A stretch of 29,352 nt of DNA, taken from positions 1-29,352 of IMG/VR virus record IMGVR_UViG_3300020595_000140. One strand, written 5' to 3'. A model generated the notes under the pieces. The model saw only the letters and a list, made by a program, of their open reading frames with translations. It was not told where the DNA came from and did no database searches. The position numbers and the translations under genes were made by a program. Origin of the DNA: a virus. Below, one piece after another: positions 6,487 to 28,801 of the stretch (position 1 is the stretch's first letter; every line of letters starts with the position of its first letter).

Positions 6487-7274
6487 GTACGATAACAATG
6501 TTAAACGGAGATGAGTGGGATATAGAAGAGCTGCTTCACAAGATGAGAGATAACGACTTTTACTACGGCTACATGGGGAAGAACTCTCTATCGTCAAGTT
6601 CTGTTAAAGAGATTCTTAAATCACCTAGTCACTATCTTAAATCACTTGAAGAGTCAAACGAGACGAACGACGCTTTTACGCAGGGTAGACTCATTCACGA
6701 AAAGATATTAGAGCCTCAAAAGGAGTATGAATGGAATGTAATAGAAGCTAAAGACAAACGCTCTAAGGCGTGGAAAGATGCTGTTGCAGAAGATAAGCCC
6801 AATACCATCTTGAAACGTGATTACAACGCTTGTATGTGGGTTGTAGACGCTTTTTGGAGCAACAAAAACCTGTCAAGCGAACTATCAAGCTCTTATATGG
6901 CAGAAGTTCCTGAGATTGGTTTGATCGAAGGCTTGCCTTTTAGAGTTAAAGCAGATGCACTACATTTTCTAGGTGATAAGATAATTGACCTTAAAACCAC
7001 ATCAGATATAAGCAGTTTCAATAAGTGGACTTGCATGAAATACGGCTACGACATTCAAGTGTATATTTACTGCACCATATTTGATATTCATTACAGCTGC
7101 TTTGAATTTCGTGTTATAGATAAAGTTTCAAAGACTGGTGGTGTATTTAGTGTTTCAGAAGAGTTCTATGAGGGCGGTAGGTTAAAAACACTCGAAGCAA
7201 TAGATACTTATAAGAAGTATTTTATTGACAACACACTTAGTGTAAGTAACTATATTATAGAGGGTGAATTATGA
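6483..7274 (+). CDS. PD-(D/E)XK exonuclease, RecB/ExoVIII-like
   Basis: A 263-aa nuclease of the RecB/exodeoxyribonuclease VIII-like (DUF3799, PDDEXK_1) family. The motifs appear in order: SSSSVKEILKSPSHYL near the N-terminus (37-52), QGRLIHEKILEP (67-78, with the conserved His72), FRVKADAL (153-160, metal-binding Asp158), IIDLKTT (167-173, Asp169-x-Lys171) and YDIQVYIY (189-196, the Gln-x-x-x-Tyr motif). These supply the expected active-site residues. In phages this enzyme resects dsDNA 5' ends for an annealase, here probably Erf at 390-920. It is coupled by ATGA to genes on both sides. The length is normal for a stand-alone phage nuclease of this type. Confidence 0.9.
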   Translation: MSTITMLNGDEWDIEELLHKMRDNDFYYGYMGKNSLSSSSVKEILKSPSHYLKSLEESNETNDAFTQGRLIHEKILEPQKEYEWNVIEAKDKRSKAWKDAVAEDKPNTILKRDYNACMWVVDAFWSNKNLSSELSSSYMAEVPEIGLIEGLPFRVKADALHFLGDKIIDLKTTSDISSFNKWTCMKYGYDIQVYIYCTIFDIHYSCFEFRVIDKVSKTGGVFSVSEEFYEGGRLKTLEAIDTYKKYFIDNTLSVSNYIIEGEL

Positions 7275-7359
7275 GCAATAGATATGCCAAGGTAACCAAT
7301 GGTGAATTATGAGCAATAGATATGCTAAGGTAACCAATAGATATGCTAAGGTAACCATT
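7263..7359 (+). repeat. 38-bp tandem duplication at a gene junction, plus a 21-bp third partial unit
   Basis: Copies at 7263-7300 and 7301-7338 differ at one base (GCC/GCT). The last 21 bp (7318-7338) are repeated again at 7339-7359 with one mismatch. The unit contains the ATGA stop/start overlap of the nuclease gene and its follower, so the junction now exists twice. The first copy encodes a 13-codon mini-ORF (7271-7312) whose stop overlaps the second ATG at 7309. Confidence 0.9.
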
Positions 7360-11272: not shown

Positions 11273-12505
11273 TTAATAATCGTTTGCGCTGTCGTATATT
11301 TTTACGCATGAAGTTCTTCCGAAAAACTGACTGCTTCCATTTTCCCTGCTTAATTCAAAGGTGTTTAGGCTATCTATAAATGTAAAAGTATCACTACTAG
11401 TGTCTACTTCAATTCCGTTAATTTTCACACCAACATCTCCACTCTTATACTTGAATGCGTACTCTTCGGGTTCTAAGTAATTAGCCGATGTAAAAAACGA
11501 ATAAACAGCTACACCCCCAACTCTTATTTCAAAAGCAACATTTCCGCTGGAAGTGTATCTAAAGTAAACCCTAGAATTAACACCTCCATTAAGTGATACG
11601 TACATCGTGGAGGGTGTTTTTGGCTTTATTTTAACTTTCAAAACCCCTTCTTGCGAGTTTATCAAATGCGATATATCGCCTGTTGTTATACCTGTGTCGG
11701 CTGCTCGTGTTTCTGTACTTCCTTCTGTTTTGATGTATGAAGAAAACTCATCCTTAACCTCTCTGCCCCACGTGTAAACACCACTAACTCCATCACCATT
11801 AAAAGAACGAGTTACACCATCCTTGCTTAAATAAATTCTAAAAACAGATGTTGTAATTCCTGCACCTAGATTAGACTTAACCCCTACACGATACCAATCA
11901 CTATCACCTACTTGCTTTATGTAGGAATCAACTACTACACCATTACCTCCTGTATCATTAGCTAAAGCAATTCCGTTCTTTATATCGAAGTATTTGAGTC
12001 CAAAATGTGATACATTCACATCTGTCACCCCTAAAGCTATATAATCAAGTTCAGCAGCATTAAAAAACGCTTCCGCACATACATCTTGACCGTCAGTCAT
12101 AGTTGTATTAGAACCTTTGAGAATGTGTGAACTTGAACCTGTGTTGTCTGCAAATATTTTATCTGCGCTTTGTGTTCCGTCTGGCGAAATCACAACATTA
12201 GAAGATACATTCAATCTTGTTTTTGTCCAATATGCGTTATTAGCGGATTCACTCCATAGAGATCTGTTAGTCGCTTCGGGTTCTGTTAAAATATCGCCAT
12301 TTGGATTTTCTGAATAATCAAATCTCAATACATCAACCCCAACTTCTTGAATTAATCCGTCTTTGTTTATTTCCGTTGCTAAAGATGCCCGTAAGTTGTC
12401 TACGGGTACGCCTTCGTAGTTACCGTTAGTATCTTGGTATGACCCAATTGTCCTTCCCACTATCCTTGCATTATCTCCGTCAGCTAAATTAAATACTAAT
12501 CCCAT
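11273..12505 (-). CDS. Phage appendage protein with lectin/CBM-like domains, paralogue 1
   Basis: A 410-aa beta-rich protein. Around residues 70-130 it carries a pattern common in phage head-spike and tail appendages: LTEPEATN, then WSESANNAYWTKTRLNVSSN and SPDGTQSADKI. This resembles a carbohydrate-binding jelly-roll module. The C-terminal third looks like a second concanavalin-like beta sandwich (LKVKIKPKTPSTMYVSLNG onward, ending FFGRTSCVKIYD). Paralogue 2 (12505-13722) shares RIDY/RFDY, LTEP-x-A-T/E, the RxADxI and the C-terminal GRT-x-x-(L/V)-x-(V/I)YD motif. It starts within the TAATG overlap at 12503-12507. Probable receptor- or glycan-binding virion protein. Confidence 0.7.
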   Translation of the reverse strand: MGLVFNLADGDNARIVGRTIGSYQDTNGNYEGVPVDNLRASLATEINKDGLIQEVGVDVLRFDYSENPNGDILTEPEATNRSLWSESANNAYWTKTRLNVSSNVVISPDGTQSADKIFADNTGSSSHILKGSNTTMTDGQDVCAEAFFNAAELDYIALGVTDVNVSHFGLKYFDIKNGIALANDTGGNGVVVDSYIKQVGDSDWYRVGVKSNLGAGITTSVFRIYLSKDGVTRSFNGDGVSGVYTWGREVKDEFSSYIKTEGSTETRAADTGITTGDISHLINSQEGVLKVKIKPKTPSTMYVSLNGGVNSRVYFRYTSSGNVAFEIRVGGVAVYSFFTSANYLEPEEYAFKYKSGDVGVKINGIEVDTSSDTFTFIDSLNTFELSRENGSSQFFGRTSCVKIYDSANDY

Positions 12506-13722
12506 TATACTAAATTATATTTTGCGAATGTCGCCATTGCGTTAAACGTTGTGAATGTACTTGCAAACGAATCTGTGTTGTCATATACATTCAATTCCTT
12601 TGTGCGTCCGTAAAAAGATAAACCGCCAATATTATCTATGTTAAAACTACACGTGTTTAGCCCTGTTGGTATTTCCCTTGAATCTAATCTACCTACCTCT
12701 ATGCCGTTCACTTTTAGAGCTGCGAAACTGTTATCCCAGACCACACGCACGTCGTTAAGAATCGTTACGTCGATTAGTTCGTGAGTGATAGACGTAACGT
12801 TGGGGTTAACAACAAAAAATGCCGAAACGTTGTTTTCGCTTATTCGTATCTCTATACGCTCGTTTGACGTTCCGTTATTTATACTGATAGACTTGTTTGT
12901 ATTATCGATACTTAGTGCAGCAACATTTACTTGAAACACTCCTTGCGTGTCGTTGAATGCCGATAATGCTGCCGATATTTCGTCGGCATCTCTCGTGAAT
13001 GTTGCCCCAACTGGTGACAACATAAAAGAACTCCTTACCTCTCCAAGTTCAACTTGCGGAATACTCAAAGAAATGTCTCCCGATACAATTCCACCCGTCC
13101 CGCTACCAAAACGTATAGAAGTACTTTCTGTTACTGAGGAATCTAAAACCACAGCATAGTAATTACCTTCTGAGATATTCAAACTTCCGTTTACTTCTAT
13201 GCCGTTTTCAAAATACGTAAACGTGCCTGAATGTAAAAATGTAATGACACTACCTATGCTTTGAGGGCTGTCTGCTTTCTCACAATACACAGAAGCTATA
13301 TATTTGTTTCCGCTTGTCACAGATAAAGACCTTTCAAAAACAACTCTTTGAGAGCCTGTTGTTTTTAGGTTGGCTGCAAATACACTAGGGAATTTTAAAG
13401 AGGGTGTAAAAGTAAAAGAACCCGTAGAAAAGGATAGACTCCAATCAGTTGGCGAAGAAACATTGTCAACACCTCCAATCCATCCACTATTAAACACTAA
13501 TGTTTCCGCTTGTGGCTCTGTAAGTAAAACAGGACAACCGCCAAGACTATAATCAATTCTAGGGACATTGTCTGCCATTACCTCTATAAAGTTCTCTGAG
13601 TCTATCCTCGCACCCTCACTAGCTCTAACAGAGTCAAATGCAGCATCTAGGGTTAACGGTATTGCAGTATAAGCTTTTCCTGCTTTATACGCACTTGGTA
13701 TGTATGAAAATATCTTTGCCAT
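12505..13722 (-). CDS. Phage appendage protein with lectin/CBM-like domains, paralogue 2
   Basis: A 405-aa paralogue of 11273-12505 with the same order. A short N-terminal part (AFDSVRASEGARIDSENFIE) is followed by VPRIDYSLGGCPVLLTEPQA and a first beta sandwich (SLSVTSGNKYIASVYCEKAD). The junction VGATFTRDADEIS, conserved in phage structural proteins, leads to a second sandwich ending LSFYGRTKELNVYDNTD. The two paralogues overlap by one base (TAATG). Tandem duplication followed by divergence would let the virion display two binding specificities. The fold is inferred from sequence pattern and the ligand is unknown. Confidence 0.7.
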   Translation of the reverse strand: MAKIFSYIPSAYKAGKAYTAIPLTLDAAFDSVRASEGARIDSENFIEVMADNVPRIDYSLGGCPVLLTEPQAETLVFNSGWIGGVDNVSSPTDWSLSFSTGSFTFTPSLKFPSVFAANLKTTGSQRVVFERSLSVTSGNKYIASVYCEKADSPQSIGSVITFLHSGTFTYFENGIEVNGSLNISEGNYYAVVLDSSVTESTSIRFGSGTGGIVSGDISLSIPQVELGEVRSSFMLSPVGATFTRDADEISAALSAFNDTQGVFQVNVAALSIDNTNKSISINNGTSNERIEIRISENNVSAFFVVNPNVTSITHELIDVTILNDVRVVWDNSFAALKVNGIEVGRLDSREIPTGLNTCSFNIDNIGGLSFYGRTKELNVYDNTDSFASTFTTFNAMATFAKYNLV

Positions 13723-14538: not shown

Positions 14539-15771
14539 TTATATGTCTTGTTCTGTTACGTTGCTTGTGTCTATATTCTCGTTTGTTTTCTGACCCGTCT
14601 GTTCCTCTACCTCTTGTTCTGTGATAGCATTCGTCAAGTCTGTAAATTCTAAAGGCTGTAACGTCTTAAAATAAAGCTCTATATCTTCTGTTCCGTTGTA
14701 GTCTAAAACCTTTTCTAGTGCATCAAGAACAACAGTCTGATAAGGTCTAATAACAATGTTATCCATTAACGTTGATGCTGTCTGTAATTCCTCTGCGTTA
14801 TTCCCAAGACCTGTCTGTTCCTTTATGCCGACAATCATCCCTGATACTATTCTATGAGATACCATTAACTTGTTTCTTGATTCGTCTGCTAGGAATTGAT
14901 ACTGTTCAGCAGCGTCACTAAGAACAACAGGCTCTATGCTTGCAGAAAGTTCTTTACTGTCGTTAAATGCCAATATAAATCTACCGCTATTTGAACTACC
15001 TGCAAACTTGTCGTGTATCTGCTTTTCTATATTTAACCTATCTTCCTCAGAAGGAACTCCGTTATTGAAGTTTATAAGCATGCTTGGAGACAGTCCGTTC
15101 TGTATGTTGCTAATATGATAGTTAGCTATTTCTTCTTCTAATTCAGCATATGGCAAACCTCCCTGATACGCAGGTGGTGAATAATAGAAATAACCTGCCT
15201 TGTATGGTTTCACGAAAAGAATCTCTACTTCTTTCTTGCTTCCGTGACCAAATGCAGCGTATCTCTTTGGTTTGTTTTTTCCGACCTTTGACGCTTCTTT
15301 CCAATTAGGGTGATAATAATAACCTTTCACAACTCCATTTACAGCTTCCTCAGTTCTTAACGTTTCAACAGGCATATGTACAAGTGGCATAATCTGCTTA
15401 CCACTCTTTGAGTATATAACCTGAAAAGCACAACCACCAAGCATATAAAAGTCATAGCAAGCTCTCCTTACATCTTCTTTCGGGAACAACTCCTTTATCT
15501 TTTTGTCTAATTCAGAGTTCTTTTCGCTATCAGCAACCTCAAGACCTTTTCCGTAAATCATCTCAACGATACCGTTTATAGAAGCGTTGTTTGTAGGGCT
15601 ACCGTTATATCTGTCGATAAGATACGTATAGTAATCGTTGTCTTCTCCGTAAGAAATCCACTTTTCCCCATAAACCTCAGTTACCTCAGGTCTAACGTGA
15701 GAGTTCATCTGAACAACATGAATCTTACCACTGTCTTTAACCTCTAATTTATCTTCCATTAATTTAGTCAT
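14539..15771 (-). CDS. Portal protein
   Basis: A 410-aa portal protein, which forms the dodecameric ring at the capsid vertex through which DNA is packaged. Evidence: the N-terminal region with WISYGEDNDYYTYLIDRYNG and SPTNNASINGIVEMIYGKG; a central wing-like region containing a PLVHMPVETLRTE loop; and the stem/clip-like region with LMVSHRIVSGMIVGIKEQTG and LQTASTLMDNIVIRPYQTVV, typical of phage_portal proteins. The acidic C-terminus (ITEQEVEEQTGQKTNENID) is probably disordered. It starts at ATG 15771, overlapping the preceding stop by 8 bp. Terminase, its usual neighbour, is not nearby. Confidence 0.88.
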   Translation of the reverse strand: MTKLMEDKLEVKDSGKIHVVQMNSHVRPEVTEVYGEKWISYGEDNDYYTYLIDRYNGSPTNNASINGIVEMIYGKGLEVADSEKNSELDKKIKELFPKEDVRRACYDFYMLGGCAFQVIYSKSGKQIMPLVHMPVETLRTEEAVNGVVKGYYYHPNWKEASKVGKNKPKRYAAFGHGSKKEVEILFVKPYKAGYFYYSPPAYQGGLPYAELEEEIANYHISNIQNGLSPSMLINFNNGVPSEEDRLNIEKQIHDKFAGSSNSGRFILAFNDSKELSASIEPVVLSDAAEQYQFLADESRNKLMVSHRIVSGMIVGIKEQTGLGNNAEELQTASTLMDNIVIRPYQTVVLDALEKVLDYNGTEDIELYFKTLQPLEFTDLTNAITEQEVEEQTGQKTNENIDTSNVTEQDI

Positions 15772-16108
15772 TTATAACAACGTAAGAGTTATCGCTAGTT
15801 TCTGCTTGTATATACTCTCCTTGCTGTATGTTGTACCTGTCGTGAGCTGATTGGTCTGTGCAAATAATAGTATCTCTGTATATCACATCATCAAAATCAG
15901 AAACAATCTCCAATGAATATCTACCACCCTCTATTAAATTAAAAGAAGCGGTAGTAGAGTTGTAGTTCCCATCAACAGAAAAAGAAACAATAATCTCTGT
16001 GCTTGTCCTTGTGTTTTTATCTGTCACAATAATCTTTCCACTCAATACGTCTTGTCTTGGAACGAACCTTATTTCTTGTGGCGATGTAGATGTCGTTAAT
16101 ACTATCAT
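15764..16108 (-). CDS. Small beta-rich structural-region protein (114 aa)
   Basis: A 114-aa protein with alternating strands (MIVLTTSTSPQEIRFVPRQD; TSTEIIVSFSVDG; GGRYSLEIVSDFDDVIYRDT) and a Gln-rich end (IQQGEYIQAETSDNSYVVIND). Similar short beta proteins occur beside portal genes in flavobacterial phages and may decorate or complete the head. It is the first gene after a strong terminator (16149-16173) and its ATG directly abuts the repeated 17-bp late motif (16109-16124), so it heads the portal-to-lysis block. Confidence 0.7.
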   Translation of the reverse strand: MIVLTTSTSPQEIRFVPRQDVLSGKIIVTDKNTRTSTEIIVSFSVDGNYNSTTASFNLIEGGRYSLEIVSDFDDVIYRDTIICTDQSAHDRYNIQQGEYIQAETSDNSYVVIND

Positions 16109-16124
16109 ATACTAAATTAACTAA
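16109..16124 (-). promoter_or_regulatory. Repeated late motif, copy at the head of the portal block
   Basis: Read on the - strand, TTAGTTAATTTAGTAT runs directly into the ATG at 16108. It is preceded by ACAAAAAACA and, about 25 bp further upstream, the terminator hairpin at 16154-16173. The same 16-17 bp occur at 18261-18277 and 27613-27628. It contains TAATTTAG, one mismatch from the Bacteroidota -7 box. It could be a late promoter with a leaderless or near-leaderless transcript, or a translation or boundary element. Confidence 0.5.
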
Positions 16125-16148
16125 GGTTATGTTTTTTGTTTTTAAGCT

Positions 16149-16173
16149 AAAAAAGGGCAGCATAAGCCACCCT
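16149..16173 (-). terminator. Rho-independent terminator after the tail-tube-like gene
   Basis: On the - strand AGGGTGGC, loop TTAT, GCTGCCCT form an 8-bp stem (6 Watson-Crick and 2 G-U pairs; + strand 16154-16173) followed by TTTTTT (16149-16154). It closes the scaffold-capsid-tube block before the portal block. Confidence 0.85.
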
Positions 16174-16200
16174 CTTTCGTTATCCAAAAATCAACACCCA

Positions 16201-16749
16201 TTAAGGTTCTCTTTGTGTTCCTCCTGTTGCAGCACCTGCAATAGTATCTAAGAATCCAGCAACACTTAAAGAAGGGTCAACGAAGTTAGCGTAAGCAATC
16301 TCGTTACCTGTCAACGTCAAAGTATATCCGTTAAGGTCGTTCATTGCTGTTCCTGTCACCGCTGTTCCTCCTGTTACATCAGTACCATTCTCTAGTCCAA
16401 CACACATAACGTTACCCATATAGTCCTCTACAAAGACATGAGGTTGACCGTAAGCCATTAACTTCAATTCTTTATTATCTTCTTTTGTTAACTTTGTAAA
16501 AGTCAAGTTCAACACTTGCTCATAGAAAGTTGTTCCATTCTCAACAGATGAATTTACGTTCTGTGTCAGCTCAGAAGAACCTTTAATATCGTACTCGTAA
16601 TATGTAAACGTTCCTGAGATGCCAGATATTTCGTCATCTGTTAGAGTTACGTCCCCGAGGTCACCGAAGTCAACGAAATAAGCCTTTCTTAGTCCACCAA
16701 CTGCGTCTTTACAGGCTTTTTTTCTACCTGAACTTAAAATACAACTCAT
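16201..16749 (-). CDS. Probable tail tube / major tail protein
   Basis: A 182-aa beta-rich protein starting MSCILSSGRKKACKDAVGGL then RKAYFVDFGDL. It has a TFTYYEYDIKGSSELTQNVN segment, ENGTTFYEQVLNLTF and a Gly/Thr-rich C-terminal part (GTDVTGGTAVTGTAMNDLNG). An MSC-x-L-x-SGR-x-x-x-CKD start is shared by structural proteins of Bacteroidota phages usually interpreted as tail tube subunits. Its place after the major capsid gene, flanked by two hairpin terminators, fits an abundant virion protein with its own transcript level. A head decoration role is the main alternative. Confidence 0.65.
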   Translation of the reverse strand: MSCILSSGRKKACKDAVGGLRKAYFVDFGDLGDVTLTDDEISGISGTFTYYEYDIKGSSELTQNVNSSVENGTTFYEQVLNLTFTKLTKEDNKELKLMAYGQPHVFVEDYMGNVMCVGLENGTDVTGGTAVTGTAMNDLNGYTLTLTGNEIAYANFVDPSLSVAGFLDTIAGAATGGTQREP

Positions 16750-16772
16750 ATTATTATTTTTTTATAGTTATT

Positions 16773-16799
16773 AAAAAAGGGCAGGCAGAACCCACCCTT
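16773..16799 (-). terminator. Hairpin terminator after the major capsid gene
   Basis: On the - strand AAGGG (16799-16795) pairs with CCCTT (16781-16777), with an inner GG/CC pairing, followed by TTTTTT (16778-16773). It lies between the capsid stop (16825) and the next start (16749). It is probably a partial terminator that sets the capsid to tail-tube ratio. Confidence 0.65.
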
Positions 16800-16824
16800 C
16801 TATCTTTAATCAAATACTAGACTA

Positions 16825-17787
16825 CTAGTTTACTCCATTTACAATACCGTAAGTTATGATTTCCTCAGGAATACCATAATTTACTGTTGCAGTCCATCTC
16901 ATTGCGATACGAACGTTTTGAGACAAGTCAGTATCTTCCATGTCTTTCACTTTCAAAGAAGTTTGGTCAGACATAAGACCTGTTCCGAACCACAAGTTAG
17001 AACTTCTTGCTGCGATACACACGTTTGAAGGCAATCCGTTTGCTACGAATAATCTAAACCCTTCAAATACAACAGGTGCAATTGTTTGGTTTGAACCTTT
17101 ATCCATGAAACCTGCTGCTCCTTGACCGTTTGCTGCAAATCCACCCAAAGAACGGATATAAGCTCTGTAAACATTCTCAGGAATATAGATAGCAAAATCT
17201 TCTTTTCCTATGATTGCTTGGTTTGTTGAAACAGCAGCGTCAACAATCTTACCTAGCTCGGCAACAACGTTTGTTGCGTCAATAGTCGTACCTGTAACTT
17301 CGTTTGCAGCAGGAAGGTTAGCGTCGTTCTCTAAGAGTTTCTTGAATCCGTCGTACTCACCGCTGTTTGCGCTGTCTCCTTGCCAAAGGATTCTCTCATT
17401 TTCTTCTGCTACCTGCGAGATAACACGAGCAACAAGGTAAGACTCGAAGTCAGGTGGTAAGTTGTCCCAAGCAGACATACCCATTGAGATAGCTTCCCAA
17501 TCGCTTCTAAAGTCTTGCTTACATAATTCCATGTTTACTTGGAACTCATCAGGCTCTAAGTAACGCTCCGTAAGAGTCACAGAAGATGTAGGGTCGAAAT
17601 CACAAGTTCCTGCCTTGATAAGGTCAGAACCAACAGCCATCTGTTTGATAACCTCTTTGTATTTTACATTTGAATGAACCGAAACACCTCCGTTGCGAAT
17701 GGTATTTGCGCTCAATAACGCAGTAGAGATGTACCCTCTTAGTTTTTCACCTGCGTAAGTAGTTGTAATGCTAGTTGTAGTTGCCAT
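16825..17787 (-). CDS. Major capsid protein (HK97 fold)
   Basis: A 320-aa major capsid protein. The N-terminus (MATTTSITTTYAGEKLRGYI then STALLSANTIRNGGVSVHSN) and the E-loop/A-domain pattern KQMAVGSDLIKAGTCDFDPT, AELGKIVDAAVSTNQAIIGK, DFAIYIPENVYRAYIRSLGG, VVFEGFRLFVANGLPSN and NVRIAMRWTATVNYGIPEEI are typical of capsid proteins in Bacteroidota phages. It follows the scaffold gene and lies downstream of the XkdF-like protease. There is no long N-terminal delta domain, consistent with the separate scaffold. Codon choice and lack of overlaps suit a highly expressed gene. Confidence 0.88.
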   Translation of the reverse strand: MATTTSITTTYAGEKLRGYISTALLSANTIRNGGVSVHSNVKYKEVIKQMAVGSDLIKAGTCDFDPTSSVTLTERYLEPDEFQVNMELCKQDFRSDWEAISMGMSAWDNLPPDFESYLVARVISQVAEENERILWQGDSANSGEYDGFKKLLENDANLPAANEVTGTTIDATNVVAELGKIVDAAVSTNQAIIGKEDFAIYIPENVYRAYIRSLGGFAANGQGAAGFMDKGSNQTIAPVVFEGFRLFVANGLPSNVCIAARSSNLWFGTGLMSDQTSLKVKDMEDTDLSQNVRIAMRWTATVNYGIPEEIITYGIVNGVN

Positions 17788-17798
17788 ATTTTATAATC

Positions 17799-18239
17799 TT
17801 AATTAAATTTATTTAGTGATTCCATAACGAAGTCAGCAGTCACTCTTGGTCTGTTTTTTCCGTATTGAAATGATTTTTGTTTTTCTTCCTTTACCTCAGG
17901 CGAGTGAACGATAGCATCTGCCGAAGGTTGCGCTGATAACTCAACAACTTTCTCAGAAATCTCTTCTCTCTCTTTTTCAACATCTTGAACAAAGCCCTTC
18001 ATAATTTCAGAAAGCTCGGTCTTGTAAGACTCAAAATCCTCTTTTGTAATGTAGTCAACTTCTTTTGAAAGCTCTACCTTTTCCTCTGCTTCAACCTCAA
18101 CAGCCTCAGCTTCTGTTTCAACTTGAGAAAGCTCCACTTCGGCTATCTCTTCTTTTACAGTATCTTCCTTTTTGCCAATAGATGACAATTTAGTCAAGAT
18201 CTCTTGCAAAATACTTTTTTCTTCTTGCTTATTATCCAT
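17799..18239 (-). CDS. Probable head scaffold protein
   Basis: A 146-aa, highly acidic, helical protein. Predicted coiled coil covers much of residues 1-100 (EEEIAEVELSQVETEAEAV-like segments), followed by a Pro/Ser-rich stretch and a basic end (SFQYGKNRPRVTADFVMESL). Position between protease and capsid, size and composition all fit a scaffold. It carries four copies of the tetrapeptide x-ELS (VELS 35-38, 55-58 and 99-102; TELS 74-77), which also occurs in the protease and may be a cleavage signal. Its start lies 21 bp after a copy of the 17-bp late motif. Confidence 0.75.
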   Translation of the reverse strand: MDNKQEEKSILQEILTKLSSIGKKEDTVKEEIAEVELSQVETEAEAVEVEAEEKVELSKEVDYITKEDFESYKTELSEIMKGFVQDVEKEREEISEKVVELSAQPSADAIVHSPEVKEEKQKSFQYGKNRPRVTADFVMESLNKFN

Positions 18240-18260
18240 AAAAAATATTTGATTATTCGC

Positions 18261-18277
18261 TATACTAAATTAACTAA
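18261..18277 (-). promoter_or_regulatory. Repeated late motif, copy at the head of the scaffold-capsid block
   Basis: On the - strand TTAGTTAATTTAGTATA lies 21 bp upstream of the scaffold ATG, in a 60-bp gap after the 59-aa gene. It is preceded by ACAAAAAACAAACA, closely matching ACAAAAAACATAACC in the copy at 16109. Of the three copies this is the only one with room for a normal 5' leader, so it is the best place to map a transcript start. Confidence 0.55.
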
Positions 18278-18299
18278 TGTTTGTTTTTTGTCGTGTTTT

Positions 18300-18479
18300 C
18301 TAGTTTCTAACTATCGTTCTAACCTCGTTTTCATTGGTCTTAACGGATTCTGAACCATCTTCTAAGCTACCTATACCTTGAGCGTAAATCTCTCCGTTGC
18401 AGCACTCCTGAGAGTAGCTTCCGTCTTTACACATACAGACCTTTCCTGTTTTACTTGGTTGACTTTTCTTTTTTCTCAT
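18300..18479 (-). CDS. Small Cys-rich phage protein (CxCxDGxYS...CC type)
   Basis: A 59-aa protein with KVCMCKDGSYSQECCNGEIY, then AQGIGSLED, then a polar C-terminus (EVRTIVRN). This CxCKDGxYSxxCC-x-G-(x)n-QGIG pattern is common in the structural regions of Bacteroidota phages and prophages. The four cysteines could bind zinc or form disulfides. Coupled to the protease gene by ATGA (18476-18479). A minor head or tail component is likely; function unknown. Confidence 0.8.
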   Translation of the reverse strand: MRKKKSQPSKTGKVCMCKDGSYSQECCNGEIYAQGIGSLEDGSESVKTNENEVRTIVRN

Positions 18480-19075
18480 AGCTCTTTTATTTTGTCTTCG
18501 ATTGCTTTTCTTAAAACATCTATGATGCTCTCTTCTTCTTTTACCTCGGATAATTCAGTTCTTCCGCTAAATAAAGCTTCTATGCTAAATCCTTTTACCT
18601 TTCCTGTTTTTACATAGTCATTCCATATCTCGTCGTTATCAACTTTCATTGAAACCATCCAACTTCCAACAGGTGCTTTTATGCCGAAAGCTCTTGATTT
18701 GTCATGCACATCGTTCTCAATTAACCAAGACTCAACAACTGTCTGTCCTGACAACTTTATTTCATGCTCAAGAGTTGAGTTTCCTTGATTGCTCTTTTCT
18801 AAGAATAACTGAGAAGCTCTTGCAATGGTTTCTTTTGAGAATTTTATCTGATAATAACCATCTTCGTTCTTTCTAAGAATCTTTTTCTCGGGAACAAGCA
18901 CGGCACCCATAAGAATTCTTCTTTCCTCGTCTATACTTGATAACTCAACTTCTTGTGGTTCTTCCGACAAAGCAACAAACTCTTCTTCTATTGCTGGTGT
19001 GTCCGTAAGAGACAACGCTTCCACAACTCCTGACCAATCTTTGCTTTCATCAATAATCATTTCTACTACTTTCAT
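18476..19075 (-). CDS. XkdF-like prohead serine protease
   Basis: A 199-aa protein matching the XkdF-like putative phage serine protease family. The core runs ILMGAVLVPEKKILRKNEDG, YYQIKFSKETIARA, STLEHEIKLSG (candidate catalytic His104), VVESWLIENDVHDKSRAFGI, APVGSWMVSMKVDNDEIWND (Ser138 or Ser142) and VKGFSIEALFSG (Ser164). Short acidic extensions at both ends contain LS-type motifs (EALS 19-22, VALS 34-37, VELS 43-46, TELS 172-175) like those in the scaffold, suggesting self-processing. It precedes scaffold and capsid, as expected for the head maturation protease. Which serine is catalytic cannot be settled here. Confidence 0.85.
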   Translation of the reverse strand: MKVVEMIIDESKDWSGVVEALSLTDTPAIEEEFVALSEEPQEVELSSIDEERRILMGAVLVPEKKILRKNEDGYYQIKFSKETIARASQLFLEKSNQGNSTLEHEIKLSGQTVVESWLIENDVHDKSRAFGIKAPVGSWMVSMKVDNDEIWNDYVKTGKVKGFSIEALFSGRTELSEVKEEESIIDVLRKAIEDKIKEL

Positions 19076-19087
19076 AATTTTCTATTT

Positions 19088-21448
19088 TTATAATTCTGCA
19101 CTACTTCTTATGTTTCTATCTAACGCTTGTTTTGTTGTTATATCTGAACTAACTACATACGCTCGTAATGGTTCTTTTTCAGTACTTCCAATGGCTTCTG
19201 CTAACTGATTAACGCCCGTACTTCCGATGATGTTGAAGTCGGGTGGTTGGACTGTTGTAGCTCCTGCTCCACCTCCCGAAGCTCCGCCTCCACCTCCGCC
19301 TATACTTGACGCTTGACCTATGCCTGCTGCTGTTATATTTGCAATAGCTACACCTGCGCTAACCTTCGTTCTTCCGACGTCTTTTGCCATTAATAAGTTG
19401 TCAGTCAACTTTGCAGGGTTTGGTTTTGGCACACCTAACGCTGCTGCAAAAGGAGAAAGAGACGGTATTGCTTTATTTGCAGCTATCCTTTTAGCTATCG
19501 AAGCATTTGCTTCAACAACAACTTTTGCAACAGCAGCTCCTTTATCGATTGCTAGAGCAGCTTTTTGTATTCCTTCGTTTTCACCAGCAATAGAAGATAA
19601 TATACCACTAAGACCGCTTACCCAGCTAATATATTCTCTGTTTATTCTTTGTTTTTCATCTACTACATATTGCTCGTAAGCAAGTTCAAAATCTCTTTTC
19701 TGCATTGTAGAGTCGTAATACGCTTGTTCAGCTTCAAACCTTTCTCTACTACCCTCTTCTGTTGTTTCAAGCAGTCTTTTTTGGTAATCTATCTCGTTCT
19801 GTATTCTTGCTTGTTGAGCTGTCATTAACTCGTCTGACAGAAAAGCACCTTCCGAACCAAGACCTATATCCCTACCTAACTCGTCTCTTTCTAGCTGCTC
19901 TTTTTCGGCTCTAGCTCTCTCGGCTCTTCTCCTTGTTAAAAGAGTGTTTTCCGCATCTGCAACAGCTTCTATTTGCTTTATGACGTATTTAGACTCCTTT
20001 CTTTTAGCTTTTATAGTTTCGCTTGACTGTCTCTTGGCTTCTGTTATTGATTTATCAATTGCATCTACGTCAACCCCCTTTTCTTTTTTTCTTAGCTTTT
20101 GCTTCTCTATAAAATCATTTAACCTGATACGCTCTTTCTCTTCAAAGTTCTTTAAGGTTAGTTCAAGGTCTCTTTTTGCGAACTCTGCTTTTTGAGCTAT
20201 AAGCTCTTCCTCTGTCTTCACTTCAGATTTTTTAGATTCTTGCTCGTACCTCTCTCTTATTTTGGTTAAGTCTAGTAGCCCCTCTTTAAAGGTTTTTCTT
20301 GATTGTTTTCTCTTACTTTCTTCGTCTACTTTATCGCTTTCTAGTAAAAGGCCTTTCCTAAGCTCTCCAATTCTTTCAAGTATAGGGTCTGCTCTTTTAT
20401 CCACCTCCTTAGAGTAATTATCAAAAACACCTAACAACTCCTTTGTTCCTAGTTCATACTCTTTTACACTAACGCCTATGCCGACAGCTACACCTGTTGC
20501 ACCTGTTCTAGTTGTTCTTTCTCCTTGCTCTTTTAGGAATTTTCTTGCAGCTTCCGACCTTTTTTCTAGGTCATCTATCTCTGCTATCGACTGTAACTCT
20601 GATTGCTTTAGCAGTAGTTTAGAGTTTTCTTGAACTAACTTATCTATCTCTATCCTTGATACTTGAGATAAAACATACTCGTCAACCTTCTTCCTTACTT
20701 CATCTAGGTTGTTTCCGTACTCTAAATCCTCTTCTTTCAGAGAAGGTACTAAATTTATTAACTCCTGAACAGCAACAGCTCTTTCTTCTTCGGAAGCAGA
20801 AACATCTTCAATAACATTAATGTACTCTCTTGCGACTATTGCGCTCGCCTCTGTCTCCGAGGTCAATTCTTTTAATTCTTCTCTGAATTCCCTGAGTTTA
20901 CTATTAACACTCCCTAATCCTTCAATCCAATTCTGAAACCACTCAGACTGTATTGCGGCTAAAACAATCTGAAAAGCTGTCATTATACCAATAACACCTT
21001 TCATTTGACCGAACAACTCCTTGAATCCGTCTGACATTGTTCTTCCGCTATTCTTTACGTTTGTAGCAAAAATACCAAATAAAGTACCTAGCTGAGATAA
21101 GTTGTTTCCAACCCCACGAATACCGTACGGTAAATCCGAAACAGTACGACCAAATTCCGTAACAATAGCACCTGAAAGACCTGCTGTTGTTTTCATCTGG
21201 TTTAAACTCTCTGTAACCTCTTCTGTTGAGTTTGCTAGCTTTATATTTTCAACAGCAAGTTTTCTGTTTATCTTTCTTTGAAGCTCTGTCTGAACATTTA
21301 TCTCTGCAACCTTTTTAGCCTCGTCAGATAGCTCGTAGTTGAGTTTTTTTGTTGCAGCAGTTAACTTGTCAACTTCCCTCGTGACTCTTGGAACAGCATC
21401 TCCTGTCTGTTTTACTTCTAGTTCTACTAAAACCTTTTTAGTTGCCAT
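19088..21448 (-). CDS. Tape measure protein
   Basis: A 786-aa tape measure protein. The N-terminus (KVLVELEVKQTGDAVPRVTR) and the region to about residue 180 are helical with hydrophobic segments (MKGVIGIMTAFQIVLAAIQS). A long, highly charged coiled-coil centre follows (about 250-600, many KEE/RAE runs). The C-terminus is Ala/Gly-rich (ASSIGGGGGGASGGGAGATT) and ends with PPDFNIIGSTGVNQLAEAIG and AYVVSSDITTKQALDRNIRS, a tail I recognise from Bacteroidota phage tape measures. By the rule of thumb of about 0.15 nm per residue, the tail would be roughly 120 nm, typical of a siphovirus. No sheath gene is visible, which agrees. Confidence 0.9.
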   Translation of the reverse strand: MATKKVLVELEVKQTGDAVPRVTREVDKLTAATKKLNYELSDEAKKVAEINVQTELQRKINRKLAVENIKLANSTEEVTESLNQMKTTAGLSGAIVTEFGRTVSDLPYGIRGVGNNLSQLGTLFGIFATNVKNSGRTMSDGFKELFGQMKGVIGIMTAFQIVLAAIQSEWFQNWIEGLGSVNSKLREFREELKELTSETEASAIVAREYINVIEDVSASEEERAVAVQELINLVPSLKEEDLEYGNNLDEVRKKVDEYVLSQVSRIEIDKLVQENSKLLLKQSELQSIAEIDDLEKRSEAARKFLKEQGERTTRTGATGVAVGIGVSVKEYELGTKELLGVFDNYSKEVDKRADPILERIGELRKGLLLESDKVDEESKRKQSRKTFKEGLLDLTKIRERYEQESKKSEVKTEEELIAQKAEFAKRDLELTLKNFEEKERIRLNDFIEKQKLRKKEKGVDVDAIDKSITEAKRQSSETIKAKRKESKYVIKQIEAVADAENTLLTRRRAERARAEKEQLERDELGRDIGLGSEGAFLSDELMTAQQARIQNEIDYQKRLLETTEEGSRERFEAEQAYYDSTMQKRDFELAYEQYVVDEKQRINREYISWVSGLSGILSSIAGENEGIQKAALAIDKGAAVAKVVVEANASIAKRIAANKAIPSLSPFAAALGVPKPNPAKLTDNLLMAKDVGRTKVSAGVAIANITAAGIGQASSIGGGGGGASGGGAGATTVQPPDFNIIGSTGVNQLAEAIGSTEKEPLRAYVVSSDITTKQALDRNIRSSAEL

Positions 21449-21584
21449 GTCCTAATCTTTTTCCTTGTTCGTATGCTTGTTTAAAACTCTTTGGTATAGC
21501 GTATTTGCCCTTTGCTATCTCTATGTTTTCAGAGACACCGTAGAACTCGCTTATTTTCAATATTTCTAATACTTCTTTTATCAT
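21438..21584 (-). CDS. Small protein between hub and tape measure genes (48 aa)
   Basis: ATG at 21584 is coupled to the hub gene stop by ATGA (21581-21584) and the 48-aa frame ends inside the tape measure start (overlap 21438-21448). The peptide opens MIKEVLEILKISEFYGVSEN and has AKGKYAIPKSFKQAYEQGKR. Both ends fit the neighbouring genes exactly, supporting a real gene that links translation of hub and tape measure. Function unknown. Confidence 0.7.
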   Translation of the reverse strand: MIKEVLEILKISEFYGVSENIEIAKGKYAIPKSFKQAYEQGKRLGHGN

Positions 21585-24500
21585 GGACAGTTTGTTTTAC
21601 TTACTATTAACCCCGATGGCGATACCTCTATTATATCATGCGTATATCCTTTTAGCTTGTAAAAGAACGTTGAGATAGATGTGTTTGCGCTCAAGATATT
21701 TGTTTTTTGGTTGTAGTAATAAGTGTAACCATCCTCATCTATCATAATTGAATTTGAGGGTTGTGATTCACTAGCACAAGCTCCTGCTTGCGAAGTACTA
21801 ATGCTTAACTGCTCGTAAGATTTTAGAATCTTTGTAACTCCGTTTTCTGTGTAATAAAGCTCATTTTCGTTAAGTAAAAAAGAGGTGTAGTTATCTGTTA
21901 TTAACTCCATTTTAACCAATCCACTCTGTAAGTTAGGTGTTTTCTTGTTTATTATGTAAATATTATCATTTATTATTATATTGTCGTTTAACTTTATGTT
22001 TAAGATGTCTTTATGCTTTAAGTAAGCACTTGTCGACAACATTCTTGATTGACTGTTATACGTGTTTAGTATATTGTTTACATGAAACTCTGAGAATAAA
22101 GAAAAATCAACTTGAAACGGTGGACCAGAACTTGTTCCTCTAGGTGCGTAACCTAGCTCAGAGCCAAAGTTTAAAGAAGATGTCCTACCTCCTTTTTTAA
22201 AGTCTTGATACTCGTTTCTTGGTCTGTATATTTCCTCTATATCTACGTAAGAAGAGCCATCGTCAAACTTTATAAACCCACCCGAATATTCTTTATCCGA
22301 TGTAAAAACTAGAGCTTGTTCATTTATTGAAGAGAACGACTCGTTAACAGAATAGCCCCATGTATAAGAAGTGTAAGGATTTGGAGAACCTACCCTTACG
22401 GCTTCTAAATCCACTAGCCCCTCAAATAGCATATGAGAGAAGTTTAAACCAACCTTATACTCTCCACCGTCAAAAGAAGTGGTTTCATCGCTAGAAAACT
22501 TCTCGCTACCGTACGAATCACCTGTAAGCTGGTTGCTCTTTACTGCTAAAACAGACTTAGGTTCTTTGTATTCATAAGAAATCTCACTATATATATCTGT
22601 TCTCGCTATTTTAAATGATTCAGAATCTACATATTGTGTTATGTCGTGACTACCTCCTTTCTTATAAAACGAGTCAGATGTTTCTACTACAAATACATCG
22701 TTTTCTTTGTAAATCACTAAATTAAACATCTTTATGAGGCTCTTTAAGAAGTCTATACATTTTATTTTAGGTACAAAGTTTTTTCTGAACCCAATACCCT
22801 CGCTTATAGATTGACTACTTATAGAGTAATTACCTATGTTTATTTCGGTAGGGTAAGCCAATGCGTCTGTTTGAGTTATAACTAAATTAGATACAGAATA
22901 ATCTGATATACCTCCTACTGTTGAAACCTCAAAAGACACTTGATTGTCAACATACCCAACTCCAAAAGTGGTGTTATTGGATATGTCTAAATCAAAGTCT
23001 AAAGCACCTGTATTCGACGAAGATTCTAGGTAGACCTTTTCAGTCTCTTTATTAAAAATCTTTAACGTAAAAGCTCCGCTACCAATAGGTGTTATGGTTC
23101 CTGTTAAGTTATAATATACGTAATTAAATCTACCGCTATTACCGCCTGCTTTATAAGTTTTTAAATACCCTAACCCAGGACCGCTTCTAACTTCATCTCC
23201 TGAGTCTAAAGAGAACTCAGAAATGGAATTTGTAACTGATGACACAGATACCTTACCTTCTATGCTTCCCGAATCACTCGACATAGCCATATACGTCCTT
23301 CTAAGGCACGATGTTTCCCTATTTAAGAAGTCATCCGAAAACTCTATGTTGTATTTCCTAGAGATAGACTCCACTATATTCATTACCAATATAGCAGGTT
23401 TTAAGTCAGTCCATAATAGTCCGTGGTAATCGTCATAAGAAGAGCCTGAAGTGTATAAATTCCTTGTCTTATCTATGTCTGGCTGATTATCAGCTGTATC
23501 TATATAATATCTTGAATCGTAACTTATAAACGGATATATCATATCAGGTATATCATCTGATACCGTGTCTGTAATCCCTGTTGGCACACCATCTACATCG
23601 TAAACCAAGTTAGCACCTGCTTCTGAGTATTTTTTAGTGTTTACGAACGACAGAGAATGGTTGAAAGCATCTAAGTCCTCAAGTACATCTAGTTTATCCT
23701 CGCTTAACAGTGTTTTTAACGACACGGTATTACCGAAAAAAGTAATATTATAAGAGTCTGCAACTCCATTTTTCATGTCTACACTTGTCAGCCTTATTTG
23801 TCCTTCTTTCCAATCAATTCCGTTTAGTTTTATAATAGCGTCAACTCTAAACCTAGCGTCAAAACCACTAACTACATCTTGATTGTAGTAGTGTTTAAAT
23901 ACTTTGTTATTTATAGTAGAAGCAGGTACACTAAACTGTTGAGTGTGGTCGGTAAGAACCTTTGAAATATCTTTAAAGTCTTTTATGTTTTCGGTTAACT
24001 CTATTACCTCGTCATCGTAAAGGTCTAGTTTAGTATGTCCTTCGTTTCTTACTAGTCTTATAGCTCCACCCTCGCTATTAGAAAATGTTGTGAAAAATAT
24101 ATCATCATATCCTTCGTCGTAACTAACAGCGTTTGCATCAGACGAATCATGGCTTGTTGAAGTCCAATAAGAACCATTCGTGCCGTCAAGGTTTCCGAAA
24201 CCACCTCCAGGACCCCTATAAGCACTAGGAAGTATAGCTAATCCGTAAGAGTCGTCTCCTGCTGTGTCCCAAAGACTCGCTGACTTAGTTTTTAAAGCCG
24301 CAATAGACTCCGAAGCGAAAGAAGCTAAACTATTCCAATCGTCCAATGTAGAAACCCTCCATCCTTTAGGAGCGATACCTCTAGGGTCTGATACGGCGTA
24401 AAAATTATACAACTTGCCGTAAACGTCTCCGTTAGCTGAATCATTGTCTACATAACACCAAGCAGGAGTAGTTAAAGCATCCCAACCTGCATCAGAACCA

Positions 24501-24640
24501 ACGTACTCAGGTATCGAGTCTCCGTTTCTAAAAGTTGTTCCGTCGAAGTTTTTACCAGACCAAACAGCGTTACCCAAAGTAACAAAGGGCACATCAAGTG
24601 ATTCTGTGTTTGATTTTACGTATATTTCTACTTTCTGCAT
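21581..24640 (-). CDS. Tail hub/baseplate protein with an inserted FISUMP (Fib_succ_major) domain
   Basis: A 1019-aa protein. Residues 1-14 (MQKVEIYVKSNTES) look like the first strand of a Bacteroidota phage tail hub protein, and that protein continues from about 203 (TKLDLYDDEVIELTENIKDF then KDISKVLTDHTQQFSVPAST, FKHYYNQDVVSGFDARFRVD, ITFFGNTVSLKTLLSEDKLD). Between them, residues about 20-199 form a complete FISUMP domain of C-type-lectin-like type: WSGKNFDGTTFRNGD, YGKLYNFYAVSDPRGIAPKG followed by WRVSTLDDWNSL, LPSAYRGPGGGF, GSYWTSTSHDSS and GAIRLVRN. The rest is beta-rich. The protein probably forms the tail tip or baseplate hub, with the FISUMP domain displayed for surface binding. It ends with an ATGA overlap to the 48-aa gene. 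Confidence 0.82.
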   Translation of the reverse strand: MQKVEIYVKSNTESLDVPFVTLGNAVWSGKNFDGTTFRNGDSIPEYVGSDAGWDALTTPAWCYVDNDSANGDVYGKLYNFYAVSDPRGIAPKGWRVSTLDDWNSLASFASESIAALKTKSASLWDTAGDDSYGLAILPSAYRGPGGGFGNLDGTNGSYWTSTSHDSSDANAVSYDEGYDDIFFTTFSNSEGGAIRLVRNEGHTKLDLYDDEVIELTENIKDFKDISKVLTDHTQQFSVPASTINNKVFKHYYNQDVVSGFDARFRVDAIIKLNGIDWKEGQIRLTSVDMKNGVADSYNITFFGNTVSLKTLLSEDKLDVLEDLDAFNHSLSFVNTKKYSEAGANLVYDVDGVPTGITDTVSDDIPDMIYPFISYDSRYYIDTADNQPDIDKTRNLYTSGSSYDDYHGLLWTDLKPAILVMNIVESISRKYNIEFSDDFLNRETSCLRRTYMAMSSDSGSIEGKVSVSSVTNSISEFSLDSGDEVRSGPGLGYLKTYKAGGNSGRFNYVYYNLTGTITPIGSGAFTLKIFNKETEKVYLESSSNTGALDFDLDISNNTTFGVGYVDNQVSFEVSTVGGISDYSVSNLVITQTDALAYPTEINIGNYSISSQSISEGIGFRKNFVPKIKCIDFLKSLIKMFNLVIYKENDVFVVETSDSFYKKGGSHDITQYVDSESFKIARTDIYSEISYEYKEPKSVLAVKSNQLTGDSYGSEKFSSDETTSFDGGEYKVGLNFSHMLFEGLVDLEAVRVGSPNPYTSYTWGYSVNESFSSINEQALVFTSDKEYSGGFIKFDDGSSYVDIEEIYRPRNEYQDFKKGGRTSSLNFGSELGYAPRGTSSGPPFQVDFSLFSEFHVNNILNTYNSQSRMLSTSAYLKHKDILNIKLNDNIIINDNIYIINKKTPNLQSGLVKMELITDNYTSFLLNENELYYTENGVTKILKSYEQLSISTSQAGACASESQPSNSIMIDEDGYTYYYNQKTNILSANTSISTFFYKLKGYTHDIIEVSPSGLIVSKTNCP

Positions 24641-25776
24641 TATCGTATATTGTTTATCTTGTTAAATGCAAAGTCTACTGTGATATTGTAGTTTATTAGC
24701 TTGTCGTTTATTTGCTGTTTAAAGGTAAAACCTTCTCCTTTCAAGTTTACAGGCAATGTTTGGTCTTTGTATTCGATATAAACCTGTTCTGACAAAGAAA
24801 GCTGTCTAAAAACCTCATTATAAGACTCAGGATAATACCCTGAACTCATTTTAAGCGTTTCTAAGCCATTTTTATTGTGAACCGTATACTGATGTCTAAA
24901 AGTGTCATAAGAGCCGTTAGAAACGAGATTAGACATGTACTCGCTTGATTCTGTCTTTAAACTAAGGTCTGAACGTTTGAAAAACCATAAATCTTGCCAT
25001 GCTCCGTATTTATTCTTGAATGTCAGCTTGTAAGTATCGTATTTACACTCTTCAATCTCTTTTACTGTAAACGTTTCTCTTGAAGGGTCGCCTGAACCTG
25101 TTGTAACAACCTCTATGTAATCAACATCAACATCTTCGTAGTAGTCGTCATAGGTTTCTTCTACACATTCAGCAGCTTCCATTACACCTCCGTCAAGAGC
25201 AACAAGACTTTCAAACATTTTTAGACTCCCGACAGAGTTTGTTGAGTACTGAATAATGTCAGATGAGTCTGATATGTATGACTTGGTTTCTGTAAAGGTT
25301 GCTTCTCCGTCTTTATAGAAGTTTATTGTTGCTGTATCTCCTGATTCCAATGTCACAGGAAACGTGATAAATGATTTATCGTTTGCTATTATTATATCGT
25401 TTGATAAAAGAACAGTCTTGTTGATTTGAGGGTTTGCACCATCTTCAAAGTAGCCATACCCCTCGTAAGAGGTCAAAGTAACAGCGGAGTCGGCTGATTG
25501 AGGAACATTGTCAACAATTCTTGTTGATACATATCTTACCCATGAGTTTTCCGAAGAGTAATCTCCGTTAAAGTTATCTTCCGTATACCCTTTTACAAGT
25601 TCAGCTATTTCAAAAGTGACCTCTTCGTTTATTGCTGTTGAAGATAAGGTATAGGTCGGAGATACGGGTACAGAAGATACGTCTCCTGTGTATATGTATA
25701 TATCTAAATTAACAGATGTTAATAAAGACCCTGAGAAATGTAAGAAGTAAGGACTTCTTGTTTTTATCTTTGTCAT
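24640..25776 (-). CDS. Tail protein upstream of the hub (distal tail-like)
   Basis: A 378-aa beta-rich protein that starts MTKIKTRSPYFLHFSGSLLT and has SVNLDIYIYTGD, an EIAELVKGY segment, paired cysteines (Cys205, Cys235), YDTYKLTFKNKYGAWQDLWF and a C-terminal sandwich (VYIEYKDQTLPVNLKGEGFT). A start of the type K-TRSPY-(F/Y) and the LTF-N-YGA-QDLWFFK stretch are typical of a tail protein placed just before the hub in Bacteroidota phages, likely the distal tail component. It shares a TAATG junction with the hub (24638-24642). Upstream lies the broken remainder of the preceding gene (25773-25885). Confidence 0.75.
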   Translation of the reverse strand: MTKIKTRSPYFLHFSGSLLTSVNLDIYIYTGDVSSVPVSPTYTLSSTAINEEVTFEIAELVKGYTEDNFNGDYSSENSWVRYVSTRIVDNVPQSADSAVTLTSYEGYGYFEDGANPQINKTVLLSNDIIIANDKSFITFPVTLESGDTATINFYKDGEATFTETKSYISDSSDIIQYSTNSVGSLKMFESLVALDGGVMEAAECVEETYDDYYEDVDVDYIEVVTTGSGDPSRETFTVKEIEECKYDTYKLTFKNKYGAWQDLWFFKRSDLSLKTESSEYMSNLVSNGSYDTFRHQYTVHNKNGLETLKMSSGYYPESYNEVFRQLSLSEQVYIEYKDQTLPVNLKGEGFTFKQQINDKLINYNITVDFAFNKINNIR

Positions 25777-28256: not shown

Positions 28257-28312
28257 TTTTCCTGTTGTGGGTGTTAGCTAACTCATTTCCTGTTGTGGGT
28301 GTTAGCTAACTC
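28257..28312 (-). repeat. 28-bp tandem duplication breaking a late gene
   Basis: Copies at 28257-28284 and 28285-28312 are identical over 27 of 28 bp (unit on the - strand GAGTTAGCTAACACCCACAA plus CAGGAAAT or CAGGAAAA). The duplication shifts the frame and introduces a TGA at the copy junction (28283-28285) after 22 codons. Deleting one copy rejoins 28351 to 28030 as a 97-aa frame. Confidence 0.93.
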
Positions 28313-28351
28313 ACGCAAAACATCTTCTTGATAGGTTCTAAAATAATTCAT
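28283..28351 (-). pseudogene. Detached 5' end of the duplication-broken late gene
   Basis: ATG at 28351 starts MNYFRTYQEDVLRELANTHN plus RK and meets TGA at 28283-28285, created by the 28-bp duplication. Without the duplication it continues KEKIIIDRLKEMRVELDLE, joining the frame at 28030-28224. The intact gene spanned 28030-28351 and encoded 97 aa. It overlaps the preceding 37-aa frame by 14 bp. Confidence 0.75.
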
Positions 28352-28687: not shown

Positions 28688-28703
28688 TACCTCACATACC
28701 AAA

Positions 28704-28801
28704 CAGAAATGAACCCCCTATTAAAACGCCTTATTTCTATTCCTCTATGAGACAGAAATTAACCCCCTATTAAAACGCTTTATCTCTCCTCCTCTGTAAT
28801 A
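28704..28801 (-). repeat. Diverged 49-bp tandem repeat
   Basis: Two adjacent 49-bp units (28704-28752 and 28753-28801) agree at about 40 of 49 positions, with the core AACCCCCTATTAAAACGC conserved perfectly. The second unit includes the last codons and stop of the 37-aa gene at 28780; the first is a decayed copy downstream of it. It looks like an older version of the short tandem duplications seen elsewhere in the window. Confidence 0.8.

Follow-up and report, generated by a model that had tools for sequence, protein, structure and literature searches.

A FISUMP domain inserted into the first beta-hairpin of a phage tail hub protein

Background

The 1019-aa protein encoded at 21581-24640 on the minus strand of the viral record IMGVR_UViG_3300020595_000140, of which the whole 29,352-nucleotide stretch is here called the window, raises the question of how a FISUMP domain came to lie near the N-terminus of a tail hub protein and what it might do there. 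It is already known that FISUMP serves as a phage adhesin and DGR-target domain, and that extra domains serve phages as host-binding parts. FISUMP/DUF1566 proteins of the Bacuni phages (Bacteroides uniformis) are DGR targets proposed to set tropism (PMC8143477), and FISUMP/DUF1566 is among the listed DGR variable proteins (PMC4159848). In siphophages of Gram-positive bacteria, CBMs are found in the gp27-like N-terminal domain of the so-called evolved Tals (PMC7291167).

Results and discussion

The FISUMP domain and its predicted fold

A profile search of the 1019-aa protein matched PF09603 (FISUMP / Fib_succ_major) over the full length of the profile (positions 1-187 of 187) to residues 20-198, corresponding to DNA 24047-24583, with an E-value of 5.5e-27 and 95.7 bits against a cut-off of 33.9. 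TIGR02145 matched residues 58-199 (E 1.8e-17; 64.6 bits, cut-off 41.65). These matches are far beyond chance and confirm that the domain is real. The original prediction had placed a full FISUMP domain at 24030-24590, which proved right to within about 30 bases, and the motifs and flanking strands that it named are present as written. The features of the protein, and of related proteins discussed below, are collected in Table 1.

When the domain was compared with the PDB by sequence, only chance-level matches were obtained (E about 0.07 and worse). An AF2 model of the domain (pLDDT 84.8) likewise gave no match under 0.001 in a plain Foldseek search, but a second look with VIA-align did better. 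The best structural matches were the Bdellovibrio adhesin tip Bd2740 (8oks), at Z 8.6, and Lcl of Legionella (8q4e), at Z 8.4, followed by C-type lectins at Z of about 6-7 and the Bacteroides fimbrial tip BACOVA_04982 (4eps; Z 6.0). The scores against many C-type lectins, Bd2740 and Lcl, at Z 5-8.6, are modest yet consistent, and the model thus shows the C-type-lectin-like fold that had been foreseen.

Table 1. Positions of the hub features, of the adjoining genes and of comparable domains in related records (window coordinates unless a record is named)
Feature	Coordinates	Strand	Basis or remark
Tail-module gene, 378 aa, adjoining the hub	24640..25776	(-)	phrog_35281; position kept in L089 and L269
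Hub strand beta-1, residues 1-8 (MQKVEIYV), before the insert	24617..24640	(-)	equivalent to the MQxIQLYI strand of relatives; predicted strand 4-9
Inserted segment, residues ~9-203	24032..24616	(-)	stands in place of the 3-4 residue beta-1/beta-2 turn seen in relatives
FISUMP (Fib_succ_major) domain, residues 16-200	24041..24595	(-)	PF09603, TIGR02145, AF2, C-type-lectin-like matches
gp27/VgrG/Tal-like hub core (predicted), residues 204-920	21881..24031	(-)	phrog_38559; VIA-align to 36 hub/VgrG entries
Jelly-roll (TNF/CBM-like) domain inside the hub (predicted), residues ~467-594	22859..23242	(-)	separate structural matches, Z 7.5-8.2
Hub C-terminal tail, residues 921-1019	21584..21880	(-)	phrog match ends at 920; pLDDT ~30-43
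Probable tape measure protein, 786 aa, following the hub	19088..21448	(-)	synteny with L089 (746 aa) and P12024S gp49; phrog_30292
Hubs with C-terminal FISUMP	L269:5006-7549; L288 ORF from 146; L431 ORF from 970; L466 ORF from 1601		
Small turn domain (~68-75 aa)	L126:3874-4131; L135:4334-4573; also L327-L345 hubs		

The carrier protein

The remainder of the protein matched phrog_38559, a family with no named function, from residue 201 (E 4.7e-45). As this match starts at profile position 12, the uninterrupted family has only about 11 residues ahead of the insertion point. For structure prediction, the hub and FISUMP were folded separately, the hub from an alignment of 50 hubs alone, since joint AF2 alignments put FISUMP-only rows on the hub or hub rows on FISUMP. 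The hub model covers the strand before the insert and the core, there being no aligned rows over the insert (residues 14-199) and the last 99 residues. Most of the core (residues ~204-920) was predicted at pLDDT 80-92; the weaker patches lie mainly around 460-510, 550-575 and 600-620. The strand ahead of the insert, at residues 4-9, was well predicted, the first ten residues having a mean pLDDT of 87.

All of the 36 best VIA-align rows for this model were hub, VgrG or Tal proteins (Z 8.2-12.9; 229-317 residues aligned), headed by that of cyanophage A-1(L) (8kea, Z 12.9). Among the leading matches were the monocin tip, Haloferax virus HFTV1, phages 80alpha and T5, Mu gp44, T4 gp27, the pyocin R2 hub and VgrG. 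The model thereby shows a gp27/VgrG/Tal-like tail hub. In these matches the alignment begins at model residue 1-6 and runs to about 920, so that the eight residues before the insert are part of the predicted hub fold. Both flanks of the insert thus join one predicted fold, in line with the earlier view of them as neighbouring strands of an uninterrupted hub. The jelly-roll domain within the core matched TNF-like and fibre-CBD structures, including the fibre CBD of cyanophage A-1(L) (8ke9). For residues 921-1019 no homology was found, and nothing matched within the family.

Genomic neighbourhood

The hub gene lies between the 378-aa gene and the gene for the 786-aa product, probably a tape measure protein judging by synteny, and this order is common to the window, L089 and L269. 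Nonlabens phage P12024S has a similar order, with small genes in between. The hub gene stands upstream of the probable tape measure gene here, whereas in classical Tal phages it stands downstream. A portal gene, a virion-structural gene and an XkdF-like protease gene follow at 14539-19075, downstream of the hub and probable tape measure genes, so tail genes come before head genes in the transcribed direction. The cultured hub relatives are the Nonlabens phages P12024S and P12024L, from which we infer that the host of the virus is probably a member of the Bacteroidota.

Several other features of the window were recorded. Two adjoining genes (11273-12505 and 12505-13722) both match the GTA/phage head spike fibre domain NF048003, at E 6.9e-28 and at E 4.1e-6, respectively, the latter under its cut-off. 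Related small ORFs at 56-388 and 922-1326 consist of imperfect 63-nt (21-aa) tandem repeats and are 65-83% alike in DNA over 263 nt. Short tandem duplications were seen at 7263-7338 (38 nt, 97%), 28258-28313 (28 nt, exact) and 28703-28800 (49 nt, 84%).

Insertion at the first hairpin turn

The hub of relatives starts with the strand MQxIQLYI, a turn of about four residues and then RVDLFKDES, while in the window MQKVEIYV is followed by about 195 residues before KLDLYDDEV, the insert proper (residues ~9-203) being delimited by this comparison. An alignment of 63 rows included 38 plain hubs; 33 of these had no residue opposite residues 14-202, and no more than 14 residues were aligned there in any of the remaining five. 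The N-terminus could be read in 179 distinct relatives, including the two cultured Nonlabens phages: the first turn was plain in 152 (one of them read by eye), held a longer loop in 12 and another domain of about 75 aa in 15; in none did it hold FISUMP. The nearest hub, that of L089, which is 39-40% identical over the core, has a plain turn. A search for FISUMP anywhere in 50 related records, many of which are fragments, found none. Together, the comparisons show that FISUMP is an insertion in the first beta-hairpin of the hub and not an ancestral part of it, as had been proposed. A four-residue indel in the beta-1/beta-2 turn distinguishes P12024S from P12024L, which are near-identical over the hub protein, and indicates that the turn tolerates changes in length.

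No second record with the same hub/FISUMP junction was met in the searches, which could raise the suspicion of an assembly chimera or an annotation artefact. This is scarcely credible, given that the frame of 1019 codons runs uninterrupted through both junctions, that third-position GC is uniform and that the insert ends exactly at the hairpin turn used by other insertions.

Re-use of the turn in related hubs

The domain of about 75 aa found at the first turn of L126, L135 and a clade within L327-L345 is unlike FISUMP. It is beta-rich, carries the motif TNKLVDSxxxFxxxVxVGDxVxNTTDxxxAxVxxVDSDTxLTLSxDIF and gave no match in Pfam. The same small domain also occupies a second hub loop (L111, L157) and occurs in one to three copies in the gene preceding the hub (L072, L158, L360, L368, L372, L403), the identity of which was read from its length and opening sequence. 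On a hub tree of 85 rows, built from the columns shared by most rows as a quick tree with SH-aLRT only and with L135 left out, at least three changes in the state of the first turn are seen, one each in the window, in L126 and in a clade of 14. The first turn has therefore been filled on at least three separate occasions.

The small domain also bears on a structural role for FISUMP, in which it would clamp the hub to the tail proteins or side fibres next to it, without binding any host molecule. The same turn takes a non-lectin domain, and the presence of up to three copies of that domain in proteins of the upstream-gene type would suit contacts internal to the tail. We nevertheless regard such a role as rather unlikely, because the FISUMP/DUF1566 domains of other proteins are surface adhesins or DGR tropism targets and most relatives have no domain at the turn at all.

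FISUMP in other viral proteins

Pattern scans found FISUMP in many viral contigs. Four further hub-type proteins carry it at the C-terminus: those of L269 and L288 have hub E-values below 1e-140, while those of L431 and L466 are more divergent. The BFVD entry A0A6J5LVS1 is a hub-like 878-aa phage protein named for its FISUMP domain. A hub with FISUMP is thus not unique to the window, but among the hubs compared the position at the N-terminal turn is. In the 190-kb Microcystis phage Mel-JY01, a stand-alone FISUMP protein (L008:7992-8633) is encoded upstream of putative chitinase and tail lysozyme genes, at a distance of a few genes.

Origin of the domain

In a 153-row FISUMP tree, the domain of the window grouped with four viral FISUMPs (99/96), and in a tree of 85 rows, richer in close rows, it fell into an all-viral group of 12 (92/95); in both trees the bootstraps are not settled and many inner branches are weak. 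Viral and bacterial FISUMPs are otherwise interleaved, which makes repeated exchange likely. A survey of the FISUMP domains of L168-L326 and L406-L489 showed that both cysteines of a WC...RC pair are present in 83 of 99 bacterial domains as against 18 of 125 viral ones (Fisher p 6e-27, kinship ignored), and the second cysteine in 92 of 99 and 22 of 125, respectively. The pair, a common though not defining feature of the bacterial domains, is absent from the FISUMP of the window, which lacks the second cysteine and reads WC...RL like most viral copies. A possible explanation is that the two cysteines form a disulfide that would be useful in exported proteins and not in virions assembled in the cytoplasm. 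The GC3 of the insert (0.314) is that of the hub core (0.310). High overall GC of the insert (0.434 vs 0.35) was considered as a sign of recent transfer and rejected; without a raised GC3, it points to amino-acid make-up.

The original prediction held that the phage had captured the domain from a host surface protein. FISUMP abounds in Bacteroidota genomes, and one bacterial copy (L169, Chitinophagaceae) is 43-44% identical to that of the window, equal to the best viral ones. A direct and recent capture from a secreted host protein is all the same quite unlikely in the light of the all-viral grouping in both trees, the missing second cysteine and the matching GC3, and the idea is further weakened by FISUMP being common in phage proteins and a known phage DGR target (PMC8143477). 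The same tree grouping, cysteine pattern and GC3 favour phage-to-phage transfer, and the immediate donor was most likely another phage, although the ultimate source of the domain may be bacterial.

A possible role at the tail tip

The reading that we consider probable is that of a tail-tip gp27/Tal-like hub, presumably a trimer, which bears FISUMP in its first beta-hairpin as a host-contact module likely acquired from a phage. The N- and C-terminal strands of a C-type-lectin-like domain adjoin each other, so that FISUMP can occupy a short turn without breaking the hub. With a hub trimer at the tail tip, three copies per tail would project outward and might add a contact with the host, to a glycan or a surface protein, beside the jelly-roll module already present in the hub. 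The first turn is a permissive site, in which related phages have placed other modules. By analogy with the CBM-bearing evolved Tals, the protein is best read as an evolved hub with a putative adhesion module of C-type-lectin fold on the tail tip. This is suggested by the lectin-like structural matches, the precedent of FISUMP/DUF1566 in DGR-driven tropism and the evolved Tals themselves.

Since FISUMP is a known DGR target (PMC8143477, PMC4159848), the domain could also be a diversified receptor-binding domain as in the Bacuni phages. The chance of this appears very slim: the Bacuni variable repeats lie at the 3' end of the gene and not within it (PMC8143477), and the 29352-base record, which is possibly a fragment, held no reverse transcriptase and no adenine-specific template repeat above control level.

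Beyond the adhesion module, we tentatively put forward a wider proposal, which we see as possible though not quite probable as a whole. It holds both that the first turn of this hub family serves Bacteroidota phages as a lasting socket for exchangeable accessory domains and that FISUMPs circulate between tail proteins as phage lineages without the second cysteine, rather than being freshly taken from hosts.

Comparison with known systems

The hub family, with hundreds of members, is hereby provided with an exact and recurrent insertion site, and the missing second cysteine offers a simple sequence mark that largely separates phage from bacterial FISUMPs. The hubs of L269, L288, L431, L466 and probably A0A6J5LVS1 are of the same or a related type and are likewise fused to FISUMP, but in the first four the domain is C-terminal and only in the window is it at the N-terminal turn. 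Bd2740, a C-type lectin free of calcium, forms a trimer that resembles the one of phage Mtd (PMC10769870). It forms the tip of Bdellovibrio adhesive fibres and, like the C-terminal domain of Legionella Lcl, is a C-terminal tip and not a hub insertion; the two share 12-16% sequence identity with the FISUMP of the window. The Bacuni DGR targets (PMC8143477) have the same C-type-lectin-type FISUMP/DUF1566 domain, but there the DGR-diversified variable repeat belongs to separate adhesin genes, whereas the window has FISUMP within the hub, and a search of the record turned up no DGR.

The closest parallel in architecture is with evolved Dit and Tal proteins, in which carbohydrate-binding or other modules decorate tail-tip proteins (PMC7291167). 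As in evolved Tals, the hub of the window has an extra module in its gp27-like domain that is absent from relatives. The module is in this case FISUMP, a C-type-lectin-like domain and predicted adhesin, its site is the very first beta hairpin, and the cultured members of the hub family infect Bacteroidota (Nonlabens phages) and not Gram-positive bacteria. The idea of the evolved Tal, which concerns CBMs in phages of Gram-positive bacteria, may in this way be extended to Bacteroidota phages and to the C-type-lectin-like FISUMP domains of their hubs.
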